Assembly (NCBI RefSeq): GCF_019578655.1
Contig: NC_063265.1
Span: 6,296,501 to 6,360,500 of the forward strand
From: Ricinus communis
Taxonomy: Eukaryota; Streptophyta; Magnoliopsida; Malpighiales; Euphorbiaceae
Reading direction: 5' to 3'
DNA: 64,000 bases
The notes under the pieces were generated by a model. It searched no databases, was not told the DNA's origin, and saw only the letters and a program-made list of their open reading frames with translations. Numbering within the stretch: position 1 is the stretch's first letter; each line of letters starts with the position of its first letter. Shown here piece by piece: positions 22,158-60,085 of the stretch. The translations under genes were made by a program, and so were the position numbers.

Positions 22158-22479
22158 AAAGTGGATGTTGAAGCAAGGACTCCAAATGACTGGTAGTTAG
22201 AGGCCCAGACCGAGGACCCCAAGAAATAGGGGCCCAACAAATTATATATATTATGTTATAATCATTGATTATAGAAAGCTAATTTTATTAAAAAGCCTAA
22301 TGACCTTAAAAATTTAAATATTTATGTTCTTTTGCATATTTGACCAATTTTTTAAATTTTTATTTAAATGATTCAATTTGGCTAGTATCACTAATAGTGG
22401 TTACAAAATTGGATACTGCTCTCTTAATTCATAAAATAATTTTAAAAATTCATACACTCTTAAAATATATGAAAAGTTA

Positions 22480-23405
22480 GCTTAATTCATGAAAATATAT
22501 GAAGATTATCGTTATTTTTCTTAATTCAGCAATAAATTTTGCAATTATAAAAAGATTTAGTATTTTTCATAAATTATTAAATTTCATAAAATTATCATTT
22601 TTTTTCGTAATATTATTCATTTTTTCGCAACTAGTAATTTATGAAAAAAATGAAAAAAATTGTAATTTAGCAATACTTTTCATAAATTTATCAATTTTTT
22701 TATAAATCATTAAATTCCGGAAAAGTAATCATTTTTTCGTATCAATTATTTTTTTGCAACTAATAACACTTACGAAAATTTAGTATGGCTTGTAAAAAAT
22801 ATGAAAGTAATTTAATAAAATATTTTGTAATTACAAAAAGATTTAGTATTTTACGTAAATTTATCATTTTTCCATAAGTTACTAAATTTTATAAAAGTAA
22901 TCATTATTTCATAATATCCTTCATTTTTTTGCAACCAGTAACACTGAGAAAAAACTAGTATAATTTGTAAAAAAATATGAAAAAGATTGTCATTTTTCAT
23001 AATTTAATAATATATTTTACGATTACGAAATGTTTAGTATTTTTTCATAAATTTAATTTTTTCATAAATCATTAGATTTATTTATAGTAATAATTTTTCG
23101 TAATACTATTTATTTTTTTACAATTAGTAACTCTTATGAAAAATTAGTTTAATTAGAAAAAATATAAAAATAATTGTCATTTTTCGTAATTTAGCAATAT
23201 ATTTTGTAATTATAAAAAATTTAGTTTATTTTTTATAAATTTATCAAAAATTTTATAAATCATTAAATTTTATAAAAGTAATTATTTTTTCATAATATCC
23301 TTCAATTTTCTTAATTAGTAACACATACAAAAAATTACTATAATTTATAAAAAAATGAAAAGAATTGTTATTTTCGTAAGATATTAATTATTTTTATAAT
23401 TATAG
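22480..23405. repeat. Tandem array of a ~190-bp AT-rich unit, about 5 copies
   Basis: A landmark near TTTAGTATTTTTCATAAA recurs at about 22554, 22670 (altered), 22840, 23031 and 23220. A second landmark, AGTAACACTTATGA-like, recurs at about 22632, 22757, 22935, 23126 and 23318. The last three intervals are 170-192 bp; the first copies are shortened. Within each unit the order is conserved: GCAATATATTTTG, ATTATAAAAAG, TTTAGTATTTTTC, ATTTATCATTTTT, CATTAAATTTTATAAAAGTAATCA, AATATCCTTCA, then AGTAACAC. No coding potential. Confidence 0.75.
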
Positions 23406-23777
23406 AAGTATAAAAGATTTCACAGATTATAATTCATTTTTATTTATAAAATTTAAATTAATTAATAATTAACGATGATATAAATACAATTAGTTTATTT
23501 TAAACAAAGTGACCTATAAAGCACCTATTGTTTATGCATATGTATTTGTCTTTTATGTTATGCATGGCTTTGAAATAGTTTCTTGCTTACACATAATTTT
23601 CCCTCAAGGGTACGTGTCGGTGATCTGCCATGAAGACTTCAATTTCTAGTACTAATTGTCTTAACAGAACATCACATTGCTCGAGGTTTTCTGTTTTCTT
23701 TTTTGTTTTTCCATATGGATGCTAGAATGTTAGAATTTGCCGATAAAATTGTAAAAATGGAACGGCTTACTTCTATA

Positions 23778-40671: not shown

Positions 40672-40869
40672 TTTACATTTTGCTAGTTGAGATTAATTCA
40701 TCATTTCTCAATTTCATGGAGAAAAAATAATAATAAGCTGGTGAAGCAAGCAACATTAAAGCAAATGAAGCTACTAGAAAAAATATTCAAAAGCAAATTG
40801 TCTATATTTACAACACTTATTAATCCAGCAAAATTATCAAAATCAACTTATTAACTTAACATTGTTCTG
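40672..40869 (+). repeat. Distal part of duplicated EBP1 upstream region
   Basis: Aligns with 59384-59550 upstream of EBP1. Shared blocks in order: CATTTTGCTAGTTGAGATT, ATTTC/TATAGG-AAAAA.AATA, AAGCT.GTGA, AGCAA..A..AAAGCAAA, GAAGC.ACTAGAAAAA, AAAAGCAA, then ATCAAA.TCAACT.ATT. Copying of a proximal promoter alone would not include this. The alignment stops at the foldback element starting near 40871 and resumes near 43910. Confidence 0.75.
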
Positions 40870-40870
40870 T

Positions 40871-42026
40871 AAGAGCATCTCAATAATTTTAAAGAATATA
40901 ATTTTTATTATAAAAGGTATTTTAAAATATTATAAATAGTCTTTTATTTTAAAAAATTTAATTTTTATAATAAATTTTATTTGAAATAATGAACTCTTAG
41001 TAATTTACTTTTCTTTATTCTATAAATATTTATAAGTTCTTTCTTTTCAAAAATTTCTGATAGGAAAGATAAAAATAAAAAACTTCAATTAATAAAGTAT
41101 ATGAAAACTGTTAGTCCATTTAATTAATTTTAAAATAGAAAATGAAGTTTGATTCTTTAAATGTAGAGAGTCAAACCAAAACTCACTTTATATTTAAATA
41201 ATAAAAGTCTATTAAAATTTTACTTTATGAAATGGCTTTTTAAAATAAATTTTTTTATTTATATAAAAAATACGTTTAAGGTAGTCTAACAAAATATTTC
41301 AATATAAAAAATAAAATAATTTATTTAAGTCCAGTAATTTTTATATTTTACTTTCTATTTATTTTTATAAACATCAATAATTTAAATTTTTTTAATTTTT
41401 TTGTCAAAAAATTAAAGATATCAATTAATAAAATATATGAAGATTTATACTGCATTTAATTAACTCAAAAAAAAATTAAAATTGGGCTATTTAAATATGT
41501 AAAGTCATACTAATTTTTGTTTTATATCTAAAAAAAGTAAAAAAATTATTAAAATCTTATTTTATTTTTATGAGATGAGTCATTAAAGTAAAAAATTAAT
41601 ATATATTAAAAACAGGATAATTACTATTTATCCATTGCCTTTTTATTTAAGAAATTATCTCACAAAATAAAATTTTGATGGATTTTTTGTATAGAGATTG
41701 ACTCTTTATTTTTTTTTAAGTATAAAATGAATAGTTGATTTGACTTTCTATGTTTGGAGCCACACATTTCACTTTCTATTTGAAATTTAATAGATACACT
41801 ATAAATTTGTATATACTTTATTGTTTGATATTTTTAATTTAATTTTTATTGTCAAAAGTTAAAAAGATAATGAAAAATTAAAACCATAAATATTAATAAA
41901 ATAAAAATAAATAATAAATAATAAAATATTGAAAATCTCACTAAACTTAAATAAATTCTTATATATTAAAATATTTTTTAAAATATTATTTATTATAGAA
42001 ATCAATAGTATTATTGGAGATGCTTT
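40871..42026. mobile_element. Foldback MITE-like element, ~1.15 kb
   Basis: The left end reads AGAGCATCTCAATAAT (from 40873) and the right end ATTATTGGAGATGCT (about 42010-42024). The two are near-perfect inverted repeats of the GAGCATCTCCAAT type that caps common plant MITEs. The interior repeats this theme imperfectly in both orientations: GTCAAACCAAAACTCAC.TTATAT with GTCTATTAAAATTTTA near 41170-41220, against AAATAAAATTTTGATGGA, TTGACTCTTTA and GAGCCACACATTTCACTTT near 41655-41780. No transposase. The TSD is not clear. Confidence 0.6.
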
Positions 42027-42029
42027 TAT

Positions 42030-43900
42030 ATTATTTTTATTATATTATTTCCTTTTTATATTTCTACAAAATTAATTATTAGCGTTCTCCTTTCCAATCA
42101 ACACAATTAGAAGACCAAATTAATAAATAAAAATATAATTTGATCATTAAATTTATTATTAACAGTTAAATCATTAAAATTAATTTTTTACTCAATTAAA
42201 ATAAAAATTTTATTTTTAGTATTACTTAATTCTAATATCTAATAAAATAATAGTAAAAATAAATATTTTAACTATGAATTTGTTTTTATTTTAGGCTGTC
42301 TATTTCCTTTAAAATAACTTGTTTCTTGAAAATACTTTGTAAGGAAAATATTTTTTTATGTGTGGCTGCAATGTTCAAAGTCATTAAAAGTGAAGAAAGA
42401 GTATGTACTTTGAGAAGAGGAAAGAAAAATATTTACTTCAATTAAGATAAAGAAAATTATTTTACCGTTTTAGATAAAATTTTCGGTTGTTAGTGAAAAA
42501 ATATTAAATTAATATTTAATACATAATATATAGTATAATAATATAATAAATTAATATACATAGTATGATATAGTATAATAATAAATTATTAAATAATATA
42601 GTTAATAAATAATATAAATTAATATAAATTAATATTAATATTAATAATTATTAATAAATAATTAATAATTAATAATTAATTAATATTAAATAAATAAATT
42701 ATTTAAATTAAATTTATATTAAATATTCAATTTAAATTATATTAGATAATTCTAGAAAATAATTATAATTATATATAGTTGAATATTTTAATTTTAATAT
42801 AATTAAATATTATATTCAATTAAAATATTATAATAAAATATAATGAAATTAATATAAAATATAATAAATTTAAATATTCAAATTAATAAAATTTATAAAT
42901 AAAATTGATTTTTCTTCAAATTATAAAAAGAATAAATTAATAAAAATATTAATATAAAATAAATATAATGCGAGATAAAAATAGATAAGACTGCTTCCTA
43001 CATATTTTATACCCTCTCTTATAAAAAAACTGGTAACACCGACTCTATTGGTAATTTCATCAATCATTCATTTATCATAAAAATAAATTAATTCAACTAA
43101 TCTTTTTATACCTCTAGTAAAAAATATTTCATAAAAAATATCTATATGATCTTAATTATAGAATGAGTTAAATATGACATTTATTATTTTGTCTTAAAAA
43201 TTCTCTTAAAATATTTTTTGACGAGCAAATTGAAAAATTTTAAATTTTGTAACGATGAATAAACATGCTTATATAAAGAGGATGTGTAAATATTATAACA
43301 AAAACTAAATTGGTAAAAAGAATATTGTTTTAATTTTTAAAAGGAAAGTTATTTTCTTCTAAAAATTATAAGATTTTTTATCTATTAAAAAATATACTTT
43401 TTAAGTCATTTTCTTAAGCATCGAAAATATGAGAAAGTTTAGAAAATACTTTTTTGATAATATTTTATGTAAAATAAATAGAACTTTAATAATCTTTAAA
43501 TAATTTAATAATTTAATAACCTTATTCTAAATATAAGTATGTTTAAAATATTTAAAATATTAAGACTAAATTATAATAGAATTAAATAATTTTAAAAAAT
43601 ATTTAATTATTTTCACTATGTACTAAAATTAATTTATTATAAAGCTAATTATTATTTCCACTAAGATTAATAAACACAATACAAAAATAATAATTTCGAA
43701 TGAGTTTTATATTTATAACAATTTAAAAAATTAAATATAATCTTTTTATAAATTTAACTATTTAGCCATATTGATTTTATTTTTAATATAATAAAATGAT
43801 ACGAAAAATAAGTCATGTATTAAAAGAAAAATTGAAAGATAAATAATAATTTTGTCATGAGTAAAATATTGAAAATGCTTTAAAAACATTTGAACACTCA
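42030..43900. other. AT-rich low-complexity insertion within the EBP1-like promoter
   Basis: Almost pure A+T with TATATTAATATAATAATT-type simple-sequence stretches, most extreme at 42500-42960. It lies between the two halves of the duplicated EBP1 upstream region and has no counterpart at the EBP1 locus, so it is inserted or expanded DNA. No gene seen. Confidence 0.6.
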
Positions 43901-44189
43901 ATTTATCTTCATTTCAGGTCACAAAGAAAACCCTAAAACGCATTTCCATTGCCTCGCACAAAATGCCAAACATGCCCTTTTAACTCTTTCGGCCCCAAAA
44001 TTTTACTTTTACTTGTAAATATATATATATATATATATATATATAAGCCTTCAAAGGCAGAGAACGGGAAGATTCCTATGTAGCTGCCACAAGGACTAAA
44101 TCTAGCTCTTCACTGAGCCACCTCTTTTTTTTTTTTTTTTTTCGGGTAAATATTTATTCTCTCTCTTTTCTTCTCTTCTTTTCTCTGCT

Positions 44190-44198
44190 AAACCCTAG
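44190..44198 (+). promoter_or_regulatory. Telo-box in front of the carrier gene (EBP1-derived)
   Basis: AAACCCTAG, at the position corresponding to 59882-59890 upstream of EBP1. Telo-boxes (AAACCCTAA type) with site II motifs are typical of plant ribosome-biogenesis and translation genes. Confidence 0.6.
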
Positions 44199-44391
44199 CT
44201 TCTAAATTATACTCTCACCCACCAATTCGCCGTCAATTTTACTTATTTATAAATTATCTCTGTAGGTTCTATTTTCCTTCTTAGATCGATTTGTTTCGTT
44301 TTTGATATTAATACTTTGTTTTTTGCTTGAATTGACTCCAAGTGATATTTCTGGTAATTTAGGAGGAAGTTTCTTTAAACTTTATCGAACG

Positions 44392-44427
44392 ATGTCGGAC
44401 GATGAAAGAGAGGAAAACTTCTCCTGA
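44392..44427 (+). other. Upstream [14 protein letters not shown] in the carrier leader
   Basis: The frameshifted relic of EBP1 exon 1 leaves an 11-codon ORF ending TGA. If the EBP1-derived promoter drives the carrier, this uORF precedes the carrier ATG in the mature mRNA and may lower its translation. It is absent if transcription starts further downstream. Confidence 0.6.
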
Positions 44428-44847
44428 AGTATTTACCAAATAAAAATACCCTGCTGAGATCGTCAATAGTATATTTCTCTTTCTCTCCATCCTTGTTTTT
44501 ACTCTCTGTAATTAATGTTTATTAAATGTGTTTTTTCTCTTTTCTTTTTATTGGTATGCGGCTTGTATCGAATTAAGTACTGTTTGATTTTTGAGTTTGA
44601 GCTAAAAAGGTGAAATCTTTATTTGCGAAGGCATTGCAGTTGGGGATTTCAGAATCTAAACCTAAGGCTGAGATCGTTGACGTTTGTGCGAAAAGAGATA
44701 CATTTGTCTGAGAGTAAATAAATCACTTAATCTCTACTAATGGATAATGTAGGCTTTTTTGGTTATTTCACTTGTTAATTATGTAAATGATCTTTGGGTT
44801 TTTTTTTTTTTTTTTGTTGTTGTTGTGTTTATAGGCAAACTGGTAAT

Positions 44848-47384
44848 ATGTACAAGAATGTGACGGAGAAGAAATCAAAGTCCCAAAATGACAGCAGGAT
44901 AGCAATCCCACCCTACATGAAAGCAGTGTCAGGGTCAATAGGCGGGGTTATGGAGGCGTGTTGTTTACAGCCAATTGATGTAATCAAAACAAGATTACAG
45001 CTGGATAGGAGTGGGACTTACAAGGGAATAATCCACTGTGGTAAAACCGTTTCGAGAACGGAAGGAGTGAGGGCTTTATGGAAAGGATTGACACCGTTTG
45101 CTACTCACTTAACGTTGAAATATGCATTGAGAATGGGATCTAATGCGTTGTTTCAATCTGCGTTCAAGGATTCTGAGACTGGCAAGATTAGTAATCGAGG
45201 CCGAGTGTTATCTGGCTTTGGTGCTGGTGTTCTTGAAGCTCTTGCTATTGTTACTCCCTTTGAGGTCTGCTTATCTTTTGTCACCCTTTTGTTTTCTTAA
45301 TATTTTTTTATTGAAATTTAATTCCTTGTGCTTCTCAGTATTTGGATTTTGCTGTTAATCTTTGTGAACAGGCATCATCTTTGTGTTTCTTAAACTACCA
45401 AATTCAACAAATGCTAAATTTTGGTGATACAACAGTGAAACTAAAGGGTCTGTTTGACAGTAGAGGAGTTGCCCATTTCATGCTAGCTTTTCTGATATTT
45501 TGTGCCTATCATTTTGTTTGCAACAATACTATTGGTCCGATCAGGTTTATGTAATTTTTATTTTTCAAATGGATTTTACTTTGTGCAAATGGAAGCTCAC
45601 ATGAAAGGGAAATAATTTTCAGGATTCGTATTGTGCTTGTCTGGACAAAAAAAAAAGACTTTGTGTTGAGGAAAATCGTGGCACTCGCTTTGCTTTTTCA
45701 AATTATTAATACATTCTATTTCATAGCCTGGTGGAGGTCAAGGAGATCGTGTTTTGTTGTTATTAGTATTATTTTTGTGTTTCCCTTTCCTTGCATTCTG
45801 CAAAAAGTAAATCGAGCAAAGGGGTAGATTTGTGTTTTAACCATATGACCTTGTTGATGGTCAATTTGGTACATGTGAGGTCAGTTCATACTTTACCCTC
45901 TTGGCATATTTGCATATTTGAAGAGGTTATAGTATTAGATGCCTTTAAAGTGAGATCTCCTATATGTAGGATGGTAATGATATAATGATCCTTGGTTCAG
46001 GTTTTTAGTATTAAGCTTCTTCAGTCGCTTTTATCTTTCTTTTCATTTATATCTTTATTTCCTTAAAATTCATAGTTATTTGGATTAAAATGATGATTGC
46101 TAAAGCTGCGCTATGAATTTAAGGTTGTTTAATACATGGAGATTGGTTAGCATCTTTCAAGATTATTTTCAACTGATAGATTGCTGCCTGCGAAATCACA
46201 ATTTGTTTTTCAACTAATCTGCCCATAATGTTTAAATCAAAGAGATAGGTAGCCTTTTTTTTGGAGTTATCATGTCATATTGTATGCTTGCTAAACTTAG
46301 GAGCTCTATTGGCAAATTAAGCTTTATTTGTTTAAACCTTATGCTTTCCAAAATGAGGATGAAAAGAAACGATAATGCTTAATGATTTAAATTCATGAAA
46401 AGCACCATTATCATAAACAATGATGCCAGTGGCATGATCTATTATCTCACTAGAACATTTTGTCTTATATTTATGTGGGGTATTTCTTTGTTATTATCAA
46501 GAATTAAACTGAGATTAATTTCCAACTAATTCTCATTAATCCAACAAACAGAATTACATTGCTTATATCTATACAGAATTGCTGAGTCAACAATGAAAGA
46601 ATCTACTTTGACTAGTTAGTCTAGTAACCAATAAGAACAGGAGATAGAAAAGAGAATCTAACAAACTAGCTAACTAATCCAGAATAAATAAATTAATTCT
46701 ACTTGGTATTATATCCTGTTGTTGCTGTACTGCTAACTTTTTGTCTGCTTGAATAGTTATAGCATGGGCATATCAGCATCTATGCAGTCTCTTTTATAAG
46801 ATTTTAGGAGATGACTTTAAAGTTCACCTGATATCTGGTTGGTGCAGGTAGTGAAAATTAGACTGCAGCAGCAAAAAGGGTTGAGTCCCGATCTTCTGAA
46901 GTACAAGGGTCCTGTACATTGTGCTCGTATGATCATCCGTGAAGAAGGCATCCTTGGGCTCTGGGCAGGGGCTGCTCCAACTGTGATGCGAAATGGGACA
47001 AATCAGGCAGCCATGTTTACGGCAAAAAATGCTTTCGATGTAGTGTTATGGAAGAAACATGAAGGTGATGGGAAAGTCCTTCTACCTTGGCAGTCTATGA
47101 TATCTGGATTTCTTGCTGGGACAGCAGGTCCAGTGTGCACTGGGCCGTTTGATGTTGTCAAAACAAGATTGATGGCTCAGAGCAGAGAGGGGGGCAATTT
47201 GAAATACAAAGGCATGATCCATGCTATCAGAACAATATATGCTGAGGAAGGCCTCCGTGCCTTGTGGAAGGGACTGCTGCCCCGGCTCATGAGAATTCCC
47301 CCGGGCCAGGCCATAATGTGGGCTGTGGCTGACCAAATTATTGGTTTGTATGAGAAGAGATATATACACAATGCTCCCTTGTAG
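44848..47384 (+). CDS. SFC1: Mitochondrial succinate/fumarate carrier, chimeric 5' end
   Basis: A mitochondrial carrier family protein closest to plant SFC1 (yeast SFC1/ACR1 type), which exchanges cytosolic succinate for matrix fumarate and links fatty-acid mobilisation to the TCA cycle. CDS exons are 44848-45264 and 46848-47384, giving 317 residues (Arabidopsis about 309). Three carrier repeats carry PIDVIK (42-47), PFEVVK (137-142) and PFDVVK (239-244). The protein ends AVADQIIGLYEKRYIHNAPL, as in the family. The start is odd: ATG at 44848 and the codons for MYKNV are identical to EBP1 exon 3, and carrier-like sequence begins with TEKKSKSQND. Where other plant SFC1 genes start at ATG, this one reads GTG, so it now depends on an EBP1-derived start codon. 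The acceptor of this exon is at 44834. The intron at 45265-46847 is 1.6 kb. Confidence 0.93.
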
Positions 47385-48494
47385 GTAGTTTTTTTTTTTA
47401 CCATGTCTTGCTCCTTCTGATCTTAAATACTAAGCAATTTTGCCGGCTGAGAGGACATTGTACCCCCTTGTAAGTACTATTTACCCTGTTTTGTCTATTC
47501 ACCCTTGTAGGTATTGCTTACATTATTTTGCTTGTTCTGGTTTCAAGTCCGGTGCAAGTATATTTCTTCTTGAATTTGTTGTTTAGAAGAAATTATTGAA
47601 GTATGAATTGGACAATGATAATAAGCAGTGTAATGTTTACATTGTCTTTATTGAGGGACAACAACTTCAGTATTTTTGAGACGCTGGGGTGAGTGTGGAT
47701 TTGTGTTTTCTAGGAGTGTAATGGCACTTAAGGTTCATATAAGGTGGTATCTTCTCCCCAATGTATAGATGTATAATATTAACGAGCTTTTCATAGTACA
47801 TGTATTTTATTGATATTAAATAAGTCGTATTGTATAAAGGAATTAAGTGCTTAATGCTATACAATTGAAGTTTAATGCCATACAATTGATGTTTAATAGT
47901 TTAATAAAACGCACATGAAAATTTACAGACTACAAAATAAGCTTCATCAGTATTTCTTTTAATCGCCAATCAGAAAGATTACAGAAATAAAAATGTAACA
48001 ACTTAGATAGAATACAAAGAGTAAAACTGTTAATGTAATACAATTAAAGTTTAAAAACTTATTTAAAACAAAATGTGAAAGTCTGAGGCTTAAAAATGTA
48101 AGAAAAAGGAAAAACATCTTTACTACGTCGTTTTAAAGTTAATTGCTGAGCTGACCTTGAATTGAGTACTGTCGGAGATTGGTAGCTTAATCTGGTCCGA
48201 TCAAAAGCCAAAATCACCGGACCAAAGTTTCTCAATATGAGGTCCCAATCAAACTCCAGAATCAACTAATTCAACGCCGCCACGTCACGGATAGACCTCA
48301 CTTTGAGTACAATCAAACACACATTAATCGCACTCCTCTTTCTTCAAATTTTTTTTAATCGTCGTCTTCATCATCACCAGCATTACATTACATTATATTA
48401 ATATTATTACTATTTTTACACTTATTCTTCTGCTTTAACTATCTCCGCCAATTTGAAACCTCCATTAGCTACAGCTTCCTGCTCTTTATCTTGA
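47385..48494. other. Carrier 3' flank and chlorophyll synthase promoter
   Basis: The first ~500 bp should hold the carrier 3' UTR (AATAAA-like and TTGTA-rich segments). From about 48120 to the ATG at 48495 is the presumed promoter and leader of chlorophyll synthase, with a CCACGTCACG G-box-like element at about 48280-48290 and a pyrimidine-rich leader. Confidence 0.45.
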
Positions 48495-49542
48495 ATGGCG
48501 TCCTCACTGCATACCGTTTTGTCAGTTAGTGCATCATCATCAAATATCTACACTAATAAACGAGTTTTTAAAACTCGGTCACTTCTCTCTCCGCTCTCTG
48601 TTTCTTTTTCAAGTGAGTCAACTCAACTCAACTCATCCAAGTTATATTCATTTGTTATCAGTTCTTGAGGACAGTTCTTTCTTTTTTCTTTTCTGAAATG
48701 TTGTTTTCAGGACGTAGGCTCACAATTAGAGCAACAGAGACCGATGCAAATGAAGGTTTTTGAGTTTTTGTTCTTTTTTTTTTTTTTTTTTTTCTATTTC
48801 TATGCAGATTATGAAATGAAAAGGATTTTTGTTTTCTTTTTAGTGGAATTTCTGAATTGTTGGTTTATGTGGCAGTTAAACCTGAGGCACCGGATAAGGC
48901 TCCAGCTAGTAGTAGTGGTGGTTCAAGCTTTAATCAGCTTCTTGGAATTAAAGGAGCTGCGCAAGAAACTGTCAGCACTCAATACTCCTTATGATACTAT
49001 TATTGTTCAAGTTGTTGCTTTTAATTATTGTTGTTATTATTATTATTATTGTTATTATTATTTGGAGATATTATGTTGAGATTCAGTTCCTAGATTTCTT
49101 TCTTTCTTGCTAATATACCAAGAAATTTGATTGATTTGTCGGATAACTAATTATGAATCTTAATCTCAAAAATATCCATCTCTGTAGCATATTAATTCAT
49201 CAAGATTGAGACTTTGGCACATGGAAAAGGCAAAATCATCTATATTGTTTGATCCTACAAGTAAACAGGATATAAGATTGACAGCTAGCATTATATCAAT
49301 GTAATAAGCAACATTTTTAAAACGAGGAGAGACAACTGGTTTATTAGACTGGTAATACTATTATGATTCAAATAGAGTACTGGCACTAAGCATTAGTGTA
49401 ATTTTGAATTTTGTATGCAAGATATAAGTAAATGTGAGTTGGCATTCTATGCCTAAAATCAAGGTTTCCATTCATAGCATTCATGTTTTGTCGTTGCCTA
49501 GTAGACGGCATATAAATTTATTTCTCATCAGATAAACAGGTA

Positions 49543-49574
<32 letters not shown>

Positions 49575-52500
49575 TAAAAGGGCAATTATGTACCAAGGAA
49601 AATTGTACTGTTTTGGTACAGCTTTCTGAATTTCATTTTGTTCTCCTATAATTGATTTCATCTGCAGTTTAATTGTATATTTTGACATAGAGTTAAGAAA
49701 GAATTATAAGCCATGAAAAGGTATGAGCTGATTGTGTGACTTTAATCTGCAGAACAAATGGAAGATCCGTCTTCAACTCACAAAACCTGTTACTTGGCCT
49801 CCATTGGTCTGGGGAGTAGTCTGTGGAGCTGCTGCTTCTGGTATATCCATATATATTCTTAAAGAAATTCTGTATAAGTTTTCCTGGTCACTTGATATGT
49901 AACACAGGACATTTCAATTCCAAGTTGCTAGCATAATCCCGAAGTTTGAATATTTTCCTGGTCATTTTCTCATGCAGTGGATGAATTTTGGCCATACATA
50001 ATCTTTCTCTCGTTAAATGTATAGATTGTCACTTTTCTAAATTTATGGTGCGAGGATAGCCAGATCATTAATTAGCTCATTAGTACTAGTAGACTCATTA
50101 CTCAGAATGCTTAGTTAATAGCTTTTCATTCTGTGCGAAAGAATTGTAAGGAATCTAAACCTAGTAATGCACTTTTGACAATATTTGCTTGCTTGGCAGG
50201 AAACTTCCATTGGAATTTGGAAGATGTTGCTAAATCAGTTGTTTGCATGCTGATGTCTGGCCCATTTCTTACTGGATACACGCAGGTTAATTTCACAGAT
50301 TAAAATGGTCCAAGTATCTGACTGACTTTATATCATTGACCTCATATTTTGCAATTTTTCTTCACTTTTGTAGACAATTAATGATTACTACGACCGAGAA
50401 ATCGATGCTATTAATGAACCTTATCGGCCAATTCCATCAGGGGCTATTTCTGAGAGTGAGGTTTGTAATACAACTCATTCTTACAAATTTTTTTGTATGT
50501 AATAGAGCTTGGGCAATATATATATCTTCTTACCTTTTTCTTGAAACTTACTGTAGGTTATTACCCAGATATGGGTATTGCTTCTTGGAGGGCTTGGCTT
50601 GGGTGGTTTATTGGATGTGTGGGTAGGTAAAATGTATGAACATGTTTTTTTAAGTTTATAAAATTAATACCAAGTCTTGATTCCATGTACTTTATAGGCG
50701 GGGCATGACTTTCCTATAGTATTTTACCTTGCACTGGGTGGATCCTTACTGTCATACATCTACTCTGCACCACCTTTGAAGGTTAGTTTACATTCAAGAC
50801 AAACCATATCATTTTCATGTTATGTACACCAAAAATAAAAGAAAAATGCTTAAAGAATGACTAGGCTTCAAATTTATTGCAGCTGAAACAAAATGGATGG
50901 ATTGGAAATTTTGCCCTGGGAGCAAGCTATATCAGTTTGCCATGGTGTGAGATCATCCCTTTTTCCGTTCTGTCAAATTGATGTTTCTAGAATTGTTAAG
51001 TGATTATTGTCATCTACTATGTCAACTAGCTCATTCATTTACTTAACCTCTGAAACTCCAAACAGAAAGTTTAAGATATTCTATCGTAGTTAGTATGGTG
51101 TACAGTGCACATCGCACCATGCACATGAGGGGGGCAGGGCGCGTTTGGTGGGCTATGATCAGAAGATTCTTTTATGTTTCCAATTGAAAATGATTCTAGA
51201 ATAACCCTTTATCTTGAAATATATAGGAACTTCTGCTGATCATGAAACCAGTCATGGTAAGCAATAAATAAGATGGGCACCATATTTTCTTATTCTTGCA
51301 GATGATATCTTAGTAAGGACTCTCCATCTGCTTGTGGCTTTTGTTACTTTTACATCTCACAAACTTTGCTAGTTTGCATTGATAGGCAGGTCCTGGCCCA
51401 TCAAAAATCATTTTTCTAGCATCTTACAATTGGAAAGTAAAAATCTATACTATATACCATTAGGCATCTTTCAAAGTTTTAAACTCGATCTCTTATTGAT
51501 AGGTGGGCTGGTCAAGCTTTGTTTGGGACCCTTACACCGGACATAATTGTTCTAACTCTCTTATACAGCATAGCTGGGGTATGAGCTAACTGAAATTTCT
51601 CATATGAGAGCTATTGGTTCTATCCAACCATTATTACCTCACAATTAACATTTCACATTTCAGCTGGGAATTGCAATCGTGAATGACTTTAAGAGTATTG
51701 AAGGAGACAGAGCAATGGGTCTTCAGGTTAACGCTATTTTCTGCAGATGCTCATAACATGAAAATCTTATCATCTTCGAATGTAACATCACATGTGATTA
51801 TGTGCGTAATTTTTTCTATATGTAACTTTATTGTGCTAATGCCGTTTAAACAGTCACTTCCAGTAGCTTTTGGCGCTGAAACTGCCAAGTGGATTTGTGT
51901 GGGTGCTATTGACATCACTCAGATCTCTGTGGCTGGTATGCCTTTCATGATGGATTCATGTTTCGTAAATATAGCACTTCTTGTACAACATATTGATCTA
52001 CTTCCATTCTCATGATTGTAGGATATCTACTAGGAGCTGGTAAACCTTACTATGCTTTGGCCCTACTTGCTTTGATAATTCCACAGGTTGTTTTCCAGGT
52101 AAAAGAAACTCCTTAATTATTTGATTAACATCATGCTCAGAAATTTTATTTTGTGATACCCTTGTTGCTTTAATATGCTATTTTAACATGTTGGGAGCTG
52201 AGTGAAAGTAATAAAATCTTGCATCACCGAGTATTTATATGCGGAAAGGACTATACATATTGCCTTCGGGTTTTAGTTGGATGTGGTTTCCATTCTGCAT
52301 GAATACTCCTCTTAATTACCCTGCTATTGCCGTCTTGTCTAACTTATATGTACTGCAGTTTCAATACTTTCTGAAGGATCCTGTCAAGTATGATGTTAAA
52401 TATCAGGTAAATCTTGACAAGCTATTCTTTTTGACATTCCATTGATATGAACTGAAATGAGTTTTATTTAAAAGCCATCAGCATCATATATTCTATGATT

Positions 52501-52576
52501 CCTCGTGTTTCAGGCTAGCGCGCAGCCCTTTCTTGTGCTTGGTTTGTTGGTAACAGCTTTAGCAACTAGCCACTGA
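48495..52576 (+). CDS. CHLG: Chlorophyll synthase, chloroplastic
   Basis: Esterifies chlorophyllide with phytyl (or geranylgeranyl) diphosphate in the thylakoid/envelope membrane, the last step of chlorophyll synthesis. Exons: 48495-48612, 48711-48755, 48876-48970, 49753-49840, 50200-50285, 50374-50460, 50557-50622, 50698-50781, 50883-50944, 51503-51578, 51664-51726, 51854-51935, 52022-52098, 52359-52406, 52514-52576. They sum to 1140 nt, 379 residues. The first ~50 residues are Ser/Thr/Arg-rich, a chloroplast transit peptide. The UbiA prenyltransferase fold follows: first Asp-rich motif NDYYDREIDAINEPYRPIPSG from residue 147, second NDFKSIEGDRAMGLQSLPV from residue 276. The C-terminus is VLGLLVTALATSH. 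Frame is kept at every junction. Intron 3 contains (AAT)n at 49543-49570. Confidence 0.96.
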
Positions 52577-53361
52577 TTCCCTAAACGAGGCAACGACAAT
52601 AGCAAACTGCTGGGTAGGAAAGGTGCTCCACGCTAGCGCATAAATGCCAGACATCCATACACATCACAGGTTTGCTCTAGGAATGGTGTCTGCATTAATA
52701 AGGTCCCCTCTCCTCCACTCCCCCTGCCTTGAACAAAATTCTACTCTTAAAAAAGAAATATTTTTTCCCTCCTATGTTCCTTCTCCTGCCCTCTTTTTTT
52801 TGACCGTGTCATCTTATTCATGAAGGAACCAGTAGTAACACTTGCTGTAAAATTTTCCAAGGATGATTTAAGCTTTGTTCTGTACTCCCACTGTTAAGGA
52901 CAAATATAAGAGAATCTTCTTAGGGCTTAGCACACAAGGCTCAAAGGCACCCAAATTACACAACTTGAAATAATCAATCAAATTGGTAAAAGATCAATCA
53001 ACTGAGAGACTTACTAACAAAAGTGACCATCTGTATTTCGTACACAAACTACAAGCTTTTAACTGCTAGCACATATAACAGACACTGCATACTGTAACAA
53101 AAGGCCACAAAAACAGCCATGGATGACGGGAACGGGAGGCCTGTGCCAGATAAGAGGAGAAGCTAACCTACATAAAACTTTCTACAGTACAACAGGTACC
53201 ACACGTATTGCACTGCTCAAAGTCATTTAAACAAACAAACAAACAAACTAGAACGAGAAGTAACATGTCTATGCACTATCCCTACTACTGCCATGAAAAA
53301 ACTAAGTACTAGAAAGACGAACAACTACTGGAAAACAAAGACCGAAGATCCTAATTACGGG
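52577..53361. other. Intergenic space between convergent genes
   Basis: 3' flanks of chlorophyll synthase (plus) and the Em gene (minus), which converge here. There is a small (AAAC)n run near 53230-53250. No gene seen. Confidence 0.5.
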
Positions 53362-53790
53362 CTAACTACGGGCTTTGTACTTGGACTCGTCAATTTCGAT
53401 CCCTTCCTCAGCAGCACGTTCTCCACCGGACTTGTCAATAGTGCTAAGTCCACCTTTGCGTCCCATTTCCTGATACCCTTCAGTCCCAATCTGCTCCCTT
53501 CTGGTTTCCCCTCCTTTGTGACCTAGCTCCTTGTAGCCCTCAGTTCCCAGCTGCTCCCTTCTCGTCTGTCCACCGCGGCTCCGCCCTATATGTAACCATC
53601 GCCAGGAAAAAAGGAAATTATAGTTATCAAAGTTTGAAGAAGATTAATTGACAAGCAAATTGGTAAGGAACATACCTTCAGCAAGGTGTTCTTGAGCTTC
53701 AAGACTCTTGCCACCAGTTCCACCAGGAACAACAGTCTCTCCTCGCTTAGCTCTAGCGTCAAGTTCAGCTCTTTCTTGATCAGAAGACAT
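53362..53790 (-). CDS. Em-type (group 1) LEA protein
   Basis: Group 1 late-embryogenesis-abundant proteins are highly hydrophilic, disordered proteins that protect seeds during drying and are induced by ABA through ABI3/ABI5. Exon 1 is 53676-53790 and exon 2 is 53362-53585, with a 90-bp intron, the usual position for Em genes. The 112 residues start [20 protein letters not shown]. They contain [20 protein letters not shown] and then two tandem copies of the 20-residue group 1 motif ([20 protein letters not shown] and [20 protein letters not shown]), and end [12 protein letters not shown]. One-motif Em proteins are ~93 residues and two-motif ones ~112, so the length fits. An upstream in-frame extension (to 53889) reads through leader and is rejected as the start because family members begin at MSSDQ/MASQQ. 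Confidence 0.96.
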
Positions 53791-53918
53791 TCTTCTGGCT
53801 TGAAGTAGTAACCCCTTTCTTTCCTGTCTAACAAGGATGGTTTTCTTTACCAAGCCTACAAACTCTCGATATCCCACTCTGCTCAGCACTCAACTGAGAC
53901 ACGGCACATGTAGAAAAC

Positions 53919-53928
53919 ATATTTATAG
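53919..53928 (-). promoter_or_regulatory. TATA box of Em gene
   Basis: CTATAAATAT on the minus strand, about 130 bp upstream of the Em ATG. Confidence 0.6.
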
Positions 53929-53974
53929 TGCAAAATAGTGACAGTGAGTGAGGAAGCAGAAGAAAGGAGAAAGA

Positions 53975-53982
53975 GACACGTA
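53975..53982 (-). promoter_or_regulatory. ABA-response element (ABRE) of Em gene
   Basis: TACGTGTC on the minus strand about 50 bp upstream of the TATA box. This matches the classical ABRE found in LEA promoters and bound by ABI5-type bZIP factors, and it fits the known ABA/seed control of Em genes. Confidence 0.75.
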
Positions 53983-54118
53983 AGAATACAGACGCGGCAA
54001 AGCAGGAAGAGAAAGCTATGTAGTAATGACACGCTTGCTACATACAAAAGCAAGCAGAATGACACGAGTCCTGGCCTGGTGGTGAATATATTTTCTTTTT
54101 TCTTTCATTTCTCGATTT

Positions 54119-54436
54119 TCATCAAACAAGATAATAACAAATGGAAAACAAGAAAGCAAAACAACAACTAGATTTTGTATAAATGAGATATCACTGATCT
54201 GCATATGCAACGTCCACCTCAATCTCGAAGAGAATTACTCAGATAGAATTAAAGAAGACATCCATTCCGCAAAAGTATTCCTCCACCTGCTGCACATGAG
54301 GAATCTCTTCCTACGGCTGGGGTTTCAACGTCAGTTCAATTCCTTTGCCAACTTCGCCTACCATTTCGAGATTCCTCATCAGTGTCGTTCTTCTGTGGCT
54401 TTTATTCAACTATTTGATGTTCTTTCTGAAGTCTAG
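54119..54436 (+). other. Unrecognised open frame upstream of the Em gene
   Basis: A plus-strand frame runs without stop for about 105 codons and ends TAG at 54434-54436. The second half (VHLNLEENYSDRIKEDIHSA, FLHLLHMRNLFLRLGFQRQF, NSFANFAYHFEIPHQCRSS) has a coding-like residue mix. It could be an exon or relic of an unknown gene. I recognise no family and no partner exon. Confidence 0.25.
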
Positions 54437-54439
54437 GAT

Positions 54440-55002
54440 TTTTTTAGATATGATCAAATGCCTTATATTCATGCTTATTGTTATGTTATTGTCCGCCTCT
54501 AGGATAATATGTCCTTTTTACAAACTGGTAGACAGTTTCGTTAGAATTTCTGCATATGCAGTCAATTAAGAACCAACAGAATTAGAAAATAAGGACCACT
54601 TCAAATAAAATTGAAATAGATGAATAGAGACCGAATGAAACTGAGTCGACAAGTGCAGGAACAAAAATATGCATTCGGCCCGTCCGTTTAAATGAACAGA
54701 TGCTTTACATTAATCTAAGCAGCTCAATTAAATTCTGTAACAAAATTATTATTAAAAGAAATGCAAATTATATTGAGGATAGTGTTTCAGTGAAATTGGA
54801 GGCTATGATTGTTTTCTTTTTCTTTTCATGAAAAGAATGAGATCATTAAAAGAAATTGAAACTGCAGCAATGAAGCTTATAATCATAGAAGACACCTCCA
54901 ATATATTTATACTTGGGATACAGGAAAATCCATCACTCAAATCTCTAAACCACAAAAAAAAAAAAAAACACAAATCTCCTTCAAGACAACCAAAATCCTA
55001 AT
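54440..55002. other. Intergenic, TRM112 3' flank
   Basis: AT-rich DNA with a poly-A run near 54955-54970 that probably lies in or near the TRM112 3' UTR. No gene seen. Confidence 0.45.
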
Positions 55003-55371
55003 CTACACCTCATCTTCATGAAGAAGCATATTAGGAATCCCTTTATTAACAGGAAACTTACGACCAGTTTCAGGGCAAATCAAAGCCCCTTCTTCAAGAT
55101 CAACCTCTAAAAGCGCGTGATGGAACTTCCTCATAAACTCCTCCGACTCGAGCATCGACGATTCCGCCGCGTCCGGCAACTCAGTATATCCCATGGTTCT
55201 TGCCGCGTCGACGAGTGCTTTCCATTCGATTTTTGAGAACATGTTTTTCAAAAAATCGGGATTGAAATCTACTTCCTTTTCAATTACTTTCTGCACTTCT
55301 ATTCGAAGAGGGAAACCGTTGGCTACTCCCTTGATATTGGAGGACAGCATGTTGTGAGTGAGGAGTCTCAT
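55003..55371 (-). CDS. TRM112: TRM112 methyltransferase activator subunit
   Basis: TRM112 is the shared small partner that stabilises and activates tRNA, rRNA and protein methyltransferases (TRM9, TRM11, BUD23 and MTQ2 types). The Arabidopsis homolog SMO2 affects organ growth through cell division. Single exon of 122 residues, the family length. It starts MRLLTHNMLSSNIKGVANGFPLRIE, has the VDFNPDFLKNMFSKIEWKALVDAA helix region, and ends CPETGRKFPVNKGIPNMLLHEDEV, the conserved C-terminal half of the zinc-ribbon-like domain. Plant and animal forms commonly keep only part of the zinc ligand set seen in yeast; only one Cys is present here. Confidence 0.96.
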   Translation of the reverse strand: MRLLTHNMLSSNIKGVANGFPLRIEVQKVIEKEVDFNPDFLKNMFSKIEWKALVDAARTMGYTELPDAAESSMLESEEFMRKFHHALLEVDLEEGALICPETGRKFPVNKGIPNMLLHEDEV

Positions 55372-55445
55372 GTCTCTCTGGCAGCAGTAGCAAAAGTCGC
55401 AGAACTAGAATTGGCTACGAGGAAAGAAGAGTATTTAGGAAAGGC

Positions 55446-55461
55446 ATGGGCTAACCCTAGG
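55446..55461 (-). promoter_or_regulatory. Telo-box/site II-like element of TRM112
   Basis: On the minus strand CCTAGGGTTAGCCCAT: a TAGGGTTA telo-box next to GCCCA, about 75-90 bp upstream of the ATG. This pairing is typical of plant translation and ribosome-biogenesis promoters and resembles the element upstream of EBP1. Confidence 0.6.
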
Positions 55462-55479
55462 CCGCCTTTGGGTCCTCAT

Positions 55480-57050
55480 ATAACAAGAAGGCACTGTGTT
55501 TGTTAGGCCTGATAATGGACTCTTACTTTAGGTTTTACACCCGTTATGCACAAGAACCAGAAAAAAGAAAAGAAAAATTGAAAACATCTTAGAAAATTAA
55601 TACTAATGTTGTGTTTGTTTGGTGGAAAGTAATCCATTACAAAGTTTATTTTGCTTAGAAAAAATATAAGATAGGAAATAAATTAAAAATAATAAAATCA
55701 AAAATTTATTTCAAATTCCTTTTATTTAAAAAATTCAAAATTAAAAATTTACTAAAAAATTAATTTTATTTAAGAAAATATATAAAATAATAAACTAAAA
55801 ATATTTCTGATATTATAAAATATGTTGGTGTGAAAATTTTATTTATTTTATTAAAATCTAATTTAATTATAGATTAAATTTTATATAAATTTAATTATGT
55901 ATAGTTTTAAATTAAATTTTATTTTATTTAAAATACATAGATTTTAAATTTGTAAATAAATTTTTTGAATTTGAACATTTTCTGTTGGTTTTAATAAGGA
56001 TTATACTTTCTTTTACCGATTGCCAAAAGCAAGTGTTGTTAATTACTTTTTTTTTTTTCTTCTTATGTTGTAAGCTAGTTGAGTAGAATATCATATTGAA
56101 AATACCCTTTAAAACTATGAAATTCTGAATTATAACTTTAAATGAGCTCAATTATAGAAAACTATCTCAATTTTAATGAAAGTTATTTGGCTATTAAAAT
56201 TCAACCAAGGTTAAATCACCGACTAGTACGAAATAGCAGTAGGAAAGAGTGAAGGAAATAATAGTCCCATGGGGTGCAAGATGGGAACTAATATTCCATT
56301 TTGTTTTTATAATATATAATGTTTTCTTTCTTTTCTTGGAAACGATAAATATATTTATTAGCCTAAGTTACTTCCTTTTTGTCAATAGAAAGGGATATTT
56401 GCATTAAAAAGTATTTATTAGCAGAGTCTCATTGGCTGGAGTTTGAAGAAAAAACTTGTACCGAAGGACCCAAACACTAATCCACGAAAAGGAAAAGGAT
56501 TTAAGATGGGCACACAAGTGACATAGTGTTAACTCCTTTTGTCATAGCTTTGTAGATCTACCACTTGTGATGAAGAAGGTCCATTCTATCTTAATAACAA
56601 AAACTTGCTTCCACTTTTGAATCTTTGTCAATATCCTCTTCTCCCTCTCACCGCTAGCCATCAGAGACAACAACCTCAAAGGGCTAATTTCAGTGAAAGA
56701 GCCAAACGGCGCCGGACTTAACTAAGGCTGGCATATCACCGCCACAAAAAAAGATTTGCATATCAACATCAATAATAAAAAGACAACAACCAACATATAA
56801 GACACATGGCCATAAAATAAGAAAAACCCATTAACTAAATTATATAAACATAATAAAAGAAAAAGACAACCGGAGAGGTAGATTCCAGTGGCTAGAGCCA
56901 CTAGAAATCACCCCTCTGGGATAACCCAAATCCTGGGTACTGCAACTAATGGAAAACTATGAGAGGAAAGACACTAGAGAGAGAGAGACGGTACAAACTT
57001 AAATGCCTAAGTTTTTTCATTCACTTGGTCATCTTTAATTATAATATTGA
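55480..57050. other. Intergenic; repeats, no gene seen
   Basis: At 55605-55870 is an AT-rich element starting ACTAATGTTGTGTTTGTTTGG; a relative lies at 58740-58980 (TTAATGTCGTGTTTTGTTAA, then AGTAAATTAAAAATAATAAA). A GC-richer imperfect hairpin lies at 56869-56920. The remainder is unremarkable. Confidence 0.5.
56869..56920. repeat. GC-rich imperfect hairpin
   Basis: The left arm (CCGGAGAGGTAGATTCCAGT) and the right arm (ACTAGAAATCACCCCTCTGG) pair imperfectly around GGCTAGAGCC, an arm length of about 23 bp. A second small hairpin (ACCC..GGGT) follows at 56924-56940. It stands out in composition; it may be an internal part of an unknown transposon. No function is assigned. Confidence 0.5.
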
Positions 57051-57079
57051 CAATAAAATTAAACAGTATTAATATTATT

Positions 57080-57971
57080 TTTAAACAATTTTCATATATA
57101 CTCATCATTTTAAGATTGAGCTTTTATAAATCAATTTCTGCATAAAAATTGCGACAGTAAATTTCAAGATGCAACCATAATTTTGAAGTTGTAACCGCAA
57201 AAATAGATAATTTCAATATAGAGAAATTTGACTTAATTTTACAACAGCTAAATAAGAAAGTTCAATTGTAAAAATTATATAAAATCAAACTGTTAAAGAC
57301 TGTCAACGGCTATTTTTTTCACGTATACTAGTTATTGCAGAAATTTTGCAAATTGTCACTACAATTCTTGGTTTTTCAATGCAATTGATGCACTATGTAA
57401 AGTAAAATAAAAAGTAATAGCCTAAGGTTTTAATATAATGAATCTTTAGAGTTTGAAGAGTATAAATATCCTCTCCAAAAGTCATTCATGGATGATCGAC
57501 AACCTACATAAGTGTCAAATCTTTGCTTACTAATTTTTTATTTTATTATAACCATTTTAATTTGGTTTTGGTTTTTGTGAGGTTTGATTGTAAGCCGTAA
57601 GCACTTTTAGGGTTTGAGTATGAGCTTCAAATACTTGGGAGAGTGTTTGAGAGTTAGCATTAGGAATTACTTTTGTATGGTTTAGTATAAACCTAAACAC
57701 TAAATTTGAAGGTGAACTTGAAAAAACTCTTAAAGAAAAGTTTGAGTGTGAGTTTGGAAACACTTGGATTTGATCTTGTATCTGTAAAATGATCATTGAT
57801 AGTGAAATACTGAATTAGAGATTGGGGAATAGATGTAAGGTTGATTTATACCCGAACTACTATAAATTTTTGTGTTTATTTTTTTTCTTCTTTCATTCTC
57901 TTCTTTGCATAAAATTGTTATTTATCATTGTTTCTACTTCACCAATTCAGCCCCTCTTTCTTGGTGTATCA
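57080..57971 (+). mobile_element. Ty1/copia-type LTR (solo or fragment)
   Basis: The layout is that of copia LTRs: GCAACC/GTAACC repeats and TCAACGGCTA (57300-57315), a TATA region GAGTATAAATATCCTC (57459-57474), a GATTGGGGAATAGATGTAAGG, then CCCGAACTACTATAAATTTTTGTG segment (57817-57873), and a 3' end ...TCTTGGTGTATCA at 57971. No primer binding site follows at 57972, so it is solo or truncated. The left end is not placed and no TSD was found. Confidence 0.65.
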
Positions 57972-58149
57972 AGGGCCAACAATGTCATTAGTGTTCAAGA
58001 GGATGTAATCCAACTAGAGTGACCTCTCCAGCTGCTGATCAGGAACAACCAAAAACCAGTTGGGATTACATATTAAAGAGTAATCAATCCGCAACAACAT
58101 TACAAAACCTGCTAATATATATACAAAAAAAAAAAAAACTCAATAGAAT

Positions 58150-59270
58150 TTGCTAATTTTTTGATATTCTTGACAATGGATTTAATCTCTCAAAGAATTT
58201 TCTTACTGTGGTTGTTACACTATCAGCAACTACTAAGGAGTCAGCTTCACAAACTACCCTATTTAATATGAGATAGTTTGCGCGTATGGCTGGATCCTTA
58301 GAGCTTGAGCTTCTACTAATAACACATAACTGCACAAGATTCTTTTTGCTCCACCAACAATCAAATGATCCTCTCAAATCTTTACCAACATAAGTTGCTG
58401 ACACTTACTTGAATTGAACTGGCATCAAATAAGACATCTGAATTCAGTTTAATAATTCCAACTTGAAGGGGTTTCCATCTGCTATCAGTATTATCCCCGT
58501 TATAAATAATGAAGGGTTGCATCTCCTTGTCTTTAGATCGTCCACAATTTATAATTGAATCCTTGTATATGAATATTACTTAAAGGGTACCTTTAGGATC
58601 AATAGTCTTGCAACTATAAATGGCTTTATTCCTAGCTATCGACATCGCCTAAAAGATATGAACAACCTTCTCAATCCAACCATACCAATCTCAAAACTAC
58701 AAGAAACCTACTTGTTTTATAATTTGTTGTAACGTATAATATTAATGTCGTGTTTTGTTAAATTTATTAAAAAAATTATTTCATTTGAGAGAGAAGACAC
58801 AAGAAAGAAAGTAAATTAAAAATAATAAAGTTAAAAAATATATTTTAATATTATGAAATATATTAACTTACTAATATAAATTTTATTTAAATTTTTTAAA
58901 TTATTTTTGTTAAAATTAATTTAATTATAACTAATTTTATGAATTTGATTCCGTAAAAATTTAAATTAAATAATTATTTTAATAAAAATATATATATAAA
59001 TATTAATTAAATATAATATAAATAATTAGAATTAAAGCGCGTATTAGAGGCAAACCATGCAGCCCGAGCATGGCTACATAGCAAGCACGTCCATGATTGT
59101 GTTGTGGCTCCTGATCACAGACACGACACACATTTGGTAAGCAGCAGTTCCTTTTAAACAAATTGTCCATTACTGCAATCACGCTCTTACGGCACCTCCA
59201 AACGAAATTGGATCCTCTGGTGGCACTTTCAATTTCCACACCAAGTATATCTGCACAATTTGCGTTCAAC
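58150..59270 (-). pseudogene. LINE (L1-type) retrotransposon 3' remnant
   Basis: Two decayed domains lie in the right order on the minus strand. First, 59003-59269 encodes a zf-RVT-like segment (FVWRCRKSV, DNLFKRN, then CRVCDQEPQHNHGRACYVAM), the zinc-binding region after reverse transcriptase. Second, 58150-58500 encodes an RNase H-like (RVT_3) segment: WKPLQVGIIKLNSDVLFDAS, then AIRANYLILNRVVCEADSLV. The intervening and flanking sequence is broken by stops and an AT-rich insertion (58740-58990). No intact reverse transcriptase is present. Confidence 0.7.
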
Positions 59271-59383
59271 TGTTTTTCTCTTTTACTTTGTAATTTTACA
59301 AATTTGAATTAACAATAATTGTAACAATCGTTATGCAATAACTCTAACATTGAATTTGAAGCACTAAACATAACGTGGTATTC

Positions 59384-60085
59384 ATTTTGCTAGTTGAGAT
59401 TTTAATTCTGCCATTTATCAAATTTATAGGAAAAACAATATAACAAGCTAGTGAGTGAAGCAAGACAAGCGACATAAAGCAAAGTGAAGCCACTAGAAAA
59501 ACAAAAGCAATCAAACTCAACTAATTTACTAAAAATAGTTTTGTGAGGACAGTTGTACACTCCTGCAGTCAAAAGGACACAAAGAAAATACTAAACCGTA
59601 TTTATTTATATCGCCTCACACAAAATGCCAAAACAAATAAAAGGCCAAACAGGCCCTTAACTCTGTAAGCCCAAAAACTTGATTTTTTTCTTAATTTTAC
59701 GCCCCCAAAAGGAAAAGAAAAAAGAAAAAAAAACCTACAAAGGCAGAGAAGTGGGGAGAAAAAGGTTCCTATATAAGCAAACGCTGCCACAAGGACTAGA
59801 ACCCTAGCTCTTCAGTGAGCCACCTCATCTTGGTTTCTTTATATATTTTGCTTTCTCTTCTCTTTTTTTCTTATCTCTGCTAAACCCTAGCTTCTTACTT
59901 TATATTCTCACCTTCCGCTTCGCCGTCAATTTTGTTTATTTATAATTTATCACTGTAGGTTTTGTTTTCCTTCTTAAATCGATTCGTTTCGTTTTCGATA
60001 TTAATACTCTATTCTTTGCTTGAATTGACGTCAAGTGGTATTTCTGCTAAATTCAGGAGGAAGTTCTTTAAAGCTTATCAAAACG
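59384..60085 (+). promoter_or_regulatory. EBP1 upstream region and leader
   Basis: Contains the intact counterpart of the sequence duplicated at 40672-40869 and 43905-44390. Visible elements: GGCCAAACAGGCCCTTAAC and AAGCCCAAAAAC (site II-like GCCCA cores, 59643-59680), a TTCCTATATAAGC TATA-like box (59766-59778), the telo-box AAACCCTAG (59882-59890) and a pyrimidine-rich leader (59825-59980). This combination is usual for plant translation-apparatus genes. Confidence 0.65.

Follow-up and report, generated by a model that had tools for sequence, protein, structure and literature searches.

A mitochondrial carrier gene of castor bean (Ricinus communis) appears to begin with sequence that belongs to another gene. 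In the 64,000-nucleotide stretch analysed here (C10:6296501-6360500 of the assembly, hereafter the window), it is fairly probable that the 5' end of EBP1 was copied and fused in frame to a nearby SFC1-type carrier gene, displacing the carrier's own start, and that the carrier is now transcribed and translated from the captured end. Judged from the sequence, the fusion itself is real and older than a set of partial copies found on C2, another chromosome, and it is probably still under constraint; capture of the start codon is likely and that of the promoter moderately likely. An earlier note on this DNA had proposed such a fusion, and its EBP1-derived leader and start codon, the MYKNV residues, the derived state of the start and the intact carrier are borne out here, whereas a join inside the old carrier start codon is not established.

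Self-comparison of the window by BLASTN aligns 44045-44872 with 59731-60568 (75.2% identity, E 4e-170) and 40676-40796 with 59383-59510 (77.0%, E 8e-15), which confirms the earlier claim that EBP1 sequence from the promoter to exon 3 is duplicated ahead of the carrier. In a MAFFT alignment inspected by eye, the larger match stretches upstream to ~43890/59555 and the smaller one downstream to ~40870, and both are parts of one duplicate of the EBP1 5' end, in the same orientation as EBP1 and split by an AT-rich insert of ~3.0 kb. The source (59383-60559, by self-BLASTN and alignment; plus strand, as are all features below unless stated otherwise) comprises the EBP1 upstream region, the leader, exons 1 and 2 and the start of exon 3. 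Its duplicate consists of a distal upstream part (40676-40870, homologous to ~59383-59545, by BLASTN and MAFFT by eye) and a proximal part (43890-44863, by BLASTN and MAFFT) with the promoter-like region, the leader, the remnants of exons 1 and 2 and the start of exon 3. The insert between them (40873-43889, no strand assigned; approximate boundaries from flank alignment, inverted repeats and flank k-mers) opens with a GAGCATCTC-like end whose reverse-complement partner GGAGATGC lies near 42020; these ends resemble those of miniature inverted-repeat transposable elements, and the flank k-mers gave no clear target-site duplication around the insert. The 5' part of the carrier gene is thus homologous to a donor, named EBP1 from its own sequence, that still exists and reads through in frame: its hand-placed coding exons 1-8 (60086-64000, by translation) remain in frame up to the end of the window, beyond which the gene extends, with the lysine-rich C-terminal part just outside. 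When the castor assembly (315.5 Mb, 140 contigs) was searched with 43905-44862, the neighbouring EBP1 was, of the six candidates scored, the one further long match.

Judged by its translation, the carrier protein is intact and of SFC1 type. As the earlier note had stated, its frame is open from the EBP1-derived ATG at 44848; two coding exons, 44848-45264 (MYKNVTEKK to PFE, from open reading frame (ORF) translation and protein match) and 46848-47384 (through the stop codon, from translation, protein match and PF00153), encode 317 residues that are 100% identical over their whole length to the public castor protein P0001, 'mitochondrial succinate-fumarate transporter 1'. A Pfam scan recognised the three Mito_carr repeats (PF00153, three stretches, 223.4 bits). 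The majority residue is kept by the castor carrier in all 217 columns that are at least 90% conserved among 149 other homologues, 20 of 170 homologue rows having been left out for length or as fragments. The designation 'succinate/fumarate carrier' is a name; Arabidopsis SFC1 is reported in passages of PMC7408384 to transport mainly citrate, isocitrate and aconitate. The ATG at 44848 is the sole in-frame ATG ahead of the conserved IPPYMK, and the methionine of PPYMK is replaced by another residue in 28 of the 165 motif-bearing homologues, so that it is not the start codon of the family; translation from 44848 would therefore be the simplest assumption.

The start codon (44848-44850) lies in the alignment-defined stretch where the beginning of EBP1 exon 3 is fused to the carrier (44835-44863), all 29 nucleotides of which are identical to EBP1 60531-60559, and the annotated first residues of the carrier, MYKNV, are encoded by this exon 3 sequence in frame with the carrier. 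The EBP1 origin of MYKNV thus stands; the end of the alignment, previously set directly after these codons, is better regarded as a join placeable anywhere in ~44863-44872. A log-odds walk for continued EBP1 homology, run with match rates of 0.75, 0.80 and 0.85, peaks at 44872 each time, and 5 of 920 offsets along the carrier coding sequence give a 7-of-9 match like that at 44864-44872; together these results place the join somewhere in 44863-44872 and the EBP1 contribution at five to about eight codons. A join at a shared TGA within an old carrier start codon, changed from ATG to GTG at 44860, is not established, because that GTG is also EBP1's own sequence, homology peaks at 44872, and MKES or MKDS is the start of three of the five named Euphorbiaceae sequences; an old start codon at this position is not needed. 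One of the C2 copies (L012) reads ATG at the equivalent codon and the other three read GTG, and the ATG is therefore taken as a later change. Castor V5 aligns with the fourth or fifth residue of Euphorbiaceae relatives, and the residues TE are shared in the alignment with Euphorbia lathyris (STEE) and Erythroxylum (MTEP), which would argue for a carrier origin of the castor TE and would favour a join before T6. Gene fragments captured by transposons of the Pack-MULE or Helitron type are defined by transposon ends bounding the captured piece. Such a capture of the EBP1 piece was considered and rejected, as no element end lies at the join: the right edge of the duplicate is inside the carrier exon, where no element end is present, the left edge not having been searched for element ends, and the repeat ends that were noted are those of the AT-rich insert that splits the duplicate.

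An assembly search revealed at least four further fragments, located on C2 at 27485018, 27718024, 27743733 and 30589827. Each corresponds to the same 0.8-kb piece of the window, 44739-45559, at 89-93% identity, and runs from the EBP1-derived intron 2 through the exon 3 leader and carrier exon 1 into the beginning of the carrier intron; carrier exon 2 was not found in 9-kb stretches around them. As these fragments already hold the join between EBP1 and the carrier, the fusion predates them. From the window copy they differ by distances of 0.035-0.097 in the carrier intron and of 0.05-0.12 in the part of intron 2 that they contain; in this same part (75 aligned sites) the window copy and EBP1 lie 0.395 apart, and over the whole of intron 2 they lie 0.272 apart. 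The 29-nucleotide leader carries 3, 4, 5 and 4 changes in the four C2 copies and none in the window copy, which suggests probable selection on the leader and start codon of the latter. Of the C2 fragments, L011 no longer has the start codon or the reading frame, L009 contains a stop, and L010 and L012 remain open through exon 1. The C2 majority departs at Q41P, G80V, T82I, G123S and V135D, sites that do not vary among the other homologues (149 of 149) and that the window copy keeps; at residue 31 the departure from the commoner residue is on the side of the window copy, and a 6-nucleotide insertion occurs in the window copy alone. Between the window copy and the C2 majority there are 21 coding differences, 12 of them residue-changing (random expectation 77%). 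This comparison is the best evidence for the importance of leader and start codon to the window copy, and it covers these rather than the promoter. L009 adjoins a 39-bp tandem array and, as judged by eye, similar repeats lie beside the other C2 copies; L009 and L010 have a common, different 3' flank; the C2 junction copies in these tandem-repeat surroundings probably go back to a single insertion, amplified together with the array.

The comparison with relatives supports the view that the EBP1-type start is a derived state, present in castor alone among the homologues listed. These were gathered by three protein searches (best 120 of 1934; best 120 of 150, 46 of them new; best 120 of 855, 4 of them new) and are represented as clusters at 90% identity, P0001 standing for six sequences, one of which was examined; neither Manihot nor Jatropha was seen among them. 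The MYKN start occurs in one of the 170 homologues listed, that of castor. A search with carrier residues 1-46 yielded no other MYKNV carrier among the best 120 of 150 matches, where one of similar length should rank near the top. Five sequences from four other Euphorbiaceae species lack MYKN and begin with MKES in Mercurialis annua (P0005) and Hevea (P0153), MKDS in E. lathyris (P0007) and MTSS in E. peplus (P0034 and P0124). Mercurialis belongs to the same tribe as castor, Acalypheae, and the MKES start is also found in three Malvales (Shorea, Durio and Gossypium); the proteins P0002 and P0164 are not counted as Euphorbiaceae.

Within the copy, several features of the EBP1 5' end are retained and others are altered. 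The EBP1 TATA box TATATAAG (TATATAA, 59770) has become TATGTA plus a 7-nucleotide gap, and a TA repeat that is not in EBP1 (44019-44046, from the alignment) sits some 30-55 nucleotides further upstream than the lost TATATAA. A motif search placed a telo-box AAACCCTA in the leader (44190-44197), conserved in EBP1 at 59882, and a second one at 43928; three of the five plus-strand telo-boxes of the window fall in the two 5' regions, and a site II-like hexamer is present on the EBP1 side only (59668). Telo-boxes together with site II or TEF elements are linked in PMC3022908 to promoters of ribosome-biogenesis genes. A putative intron of the 5' untranslated region (5'-UTR), derived from EBP1 and identified by alignment (44262-44362, donor at 44262 or 44266), is the best conserved of the three introns, with 86 of 99 positions identical to EBP1, and holds ARATCGA/CGATT motifs (44283-44291) of the kind discussed for intron-mediated enhancement in part of PMC8157754.

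The exon 1 remnant (44392-44468, from alignment) still has EBP1's ATG at 44392 and is frameshifted by a 14-nucleotide deletion, and it contains two upstream ORFs, 44392-44427 (11 codons) and 44402-44443 (13 codons, MKERKTSPEVFTK), both of which terminate before 44848. The exon 2 remnant (44631-44713, from alignment) has an acceptor changed from CAG/AG to CGAAG/G and a donor changed from GTAAGT to GTAAAT, and the acceptor of exon 3 is kept. The frameshift in exon 1 and the intact exon 3 acceptor agree with what had been noted previously, but the exon 2 acceptor is weakened rather than certainly lost. With both exon 2 sites weakened and the exon 3 acceptor kept, splice sites and starts having been predicted by eye, an mRNA that joins the leader, the exon 1 remnant and exon 3 at 44835, skipping exon 2, would be the likeliest.

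The proposed sequence of events is that a piece of EBP1 (the upstream region, the leader with its probable 5'-UTR intron, exons 1 and 2 and the very beginning of exon 3) became fused in frame to coding exon 1 of the carrier and took the place of the carrier's own start. Transcription would then begin in the EBP1-derived region and translation at 44848. The two upstream ORFs would damp translation unless exon 1 is skipped, and an alternative splice joining the leader donor directly to 44835 would bypass them. The exchange of the N-terminus is probably neutral for transport, so any effect would be expected in expression.

The conservation of the copy against EBP1 is consistent with constraint on parts of it. 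In introns 1 and 2, 190 of 252 positions are identical, whereas the region corresponding to EBP1 59731-60057 (putative start region, leader and first intron) retains 261 of 309 (p 0.005 against the introns), and the fully identical exon 3 leader stands above the introns (Fisher p 0.0005) and above the exon 1 and 2 remnants (p 0.014); the regions were set from the inferred EBP1 structure, the p values are uncorrected, and constraint on EBP1 itself raises identity in the exons and leader.

Several observations weigh against transcription and translation from the captured end. The exon 1 and 2 remnants, though broken, are also conserved above the introns (138 of 162, p 0.011), so that constraint on EBP1 alone may account for part of the conservation of the leader; the identity of the latter (29/29) could also stem from a very short gene conversion, and three of its changes are common to all four C2 copies, which do not then amount to four independent trials. 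Only 19 of the 28 nucleotides ahead of EBP1's ATG are identical, the carrier ATG would be preceded by two upstream ORFs if exon 1 is kept, the start codons of the outgroups are those of gene models, and P0001 is one of the six sequences in its 90% cluster. On the promoter side, the EBP1 TATATAA has been destroyed, the TA repeat and ~3 kb of inserted sequence have been gained upstream, and the part corresponding to 59574-59730 is only 65% identical (84 of 129). With the TATA box lost and the insert present, replacement of the carrier's promoter by that of EBP1 is plausible but unproven, and the same observations would favour a start-codon capture only, in which EBP1 gave the ATG and the splice acceptor and the promoter lies elsewhere, in the AT-rich insert, the TA repeat or a residual carrier promoter upstream of 40676. 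This alternative is considered unlikely in view of the higher conservation of 59731-60057 relative to the introns and the retention of the telo-box and the ARATCGA/CGATT motifs.

It is far less probable still that the EBP1 piece is inert debris, with the start site of the carrier inside former intron 2 or exon 3, or with an unrelated upstream exon that has its own ATG. The broken state of the exon 1 and 2 remnants and a genomic frame that stays open for 19 codons upstream of 44848, with no ATG within, would be compatible with such a history, but the unchanged leader of the window copy, set against its changes on C2, and the position of 44848 as the sole in-frame ATG before IPPYMK speak against it. 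A further alternative concerns the origin of the arrangement and is compatible with expression from the captured end: instead of a copy-in of ~1.2 kb, a larger unit (the carrier, LEA_5, Trm112 and the EBP1 5' end) may have been duplicated in tandem, the first copy being later lost. Breakpoints in EBP1 exon 3 and at the carrier start would yield exactly the observed join, yet homology ends at 40676/59383, TBLASTN searches of the window disclosed no further copy of the carrier or of EBP1, and a BLASTN comparison between 1-40700 and 47385-59400 gave one weak AT-rich match only (20302-20462, 70.6%). This larger duplication is accordingly not favoured and appears rather improbable.

A copied EBP1 5' end acting in the carrier gene would have been in place for a long time. 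The differences in introns 1 and 2 comprise 33 transitions and 29 transversions in 252 sites, a two-parameter distance of ~0.30. Plant substitution rates are around 2.5e-9 to 1.5e-8 per site per year. From these values the fusion would be about 10-60 million years old, the one firm part being the order of events, in which the fusion precedes the C2 copies.

Chimeric genes with captured 5' ends have arisen by a process already known in other organisms, of which the castor gene is one more case and probably an old one; no report of this carrier/EBP1 fusion was found among the papers listed by searches of an open-access library. In the type II fusion genes of Oryza, as described in part of PMC9199173, a duplicate of one parental gene was inserted beside its unduplicated partner, and here likewise a duplicated piece is fused to an adjoining gene; that study reported purifying selection for most gene pairs. 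Unlike the Oryza cases, the castor donor contributes little beyond an upstream region, a leader and a few codons, and the protein is nearly unchanged. Chimeras produced by tandem duplication that alter expression in Drosophila yakuba (PMC5460883) resemble the castor gene in their shuffled regulatory pieces and chimeric structures; they come from a population sample with RNA-seq, whereas the castor case is known here from its sequence and is probably old. The tomato SUN gene in DEFL1, treated in PMC6762207, is another plant gene put under the expression of a different gene through duplication, but there it was the Rider retrotransposon that moved the SUN region into DEFL1; the castor carrier instead received a copy of the EBP1 5' end, and its join shows no transposon end.

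The possible consequences for castor metabolism are best viewed with reserve. EBP1 genes are reported in part of PMC5107689 to be auxin-responsive and correlated with ribosome-biogenesis genes. During the mobilisation of seed oil, mitochondria of the castor endosperm turn succinate into malate; the endosperm proteome paper assigns the import of succinate to DTC, and its main text contains neither 'SFC' nor 'fumarate' (0 occurrences; PMC10588648). As import is assigned to DTC, SFC is unmentioned and Arabidopsis SFC1 is of the citrate class, any gain of function through the captured 5' end is speculative. It may be suggested, tentatively and at rather less than even confidence, that the ancestral promoter and start of castor's only SFC1-type (citrate-class) carrier were lost and that the gene has been expressed for millions of years from a duplicated 5' end of a growth/ribosome gene, EBP1, with an upstream-ORF leader; that the carrier is the sole one of its kind rests on castor being named once among the matches listed. 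If true, this would link the exchange of organic acids by mitochondria with the cell-growth programme in a species whose seedlings depend on sugar made out of seed oil. The locus offers a clean case of a conserved metabolic gene that apparently received a new start codon, and perhaps a promoter, by local duplication while its protein remained nearly the same. Donor and recipient lie within 16 kb of each other, so their co-expression is directly testable, and the C2 junction copies, without the rest of the gene, provide a built-in comparison that is seldom present in such cases. For castor, one of the classical plants of seed-oil mobilisation, these results suggest that the regulation of this carrier should not be carried over from Arabidopsis.

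The gene order in the window is a probable AMP deaminase (minus strand; its match of 26.0 bits is just below the 27.0 cut-off), VIT (minus), an RNase PH-type gene (minus), the carrier (plus), LEA_5 (minus), Trm112 (minus) and EBP1 (plus), with Pfam scans covering 19 hand-picked ORFs of the 77 in the window. The LEA_5 seed-protein gene (53365-53643, minus strand) and the Trm112 gene (55006-55404) lie between the carrier and EBP1. An EBP1 intron contains direct repeats of ~180 bp that are 84-90% identical (62466-63013), with a related stretch of 60-70 bp at ~61468, and other local direct repeats, 65-77% identical, occur at 22468-23407.

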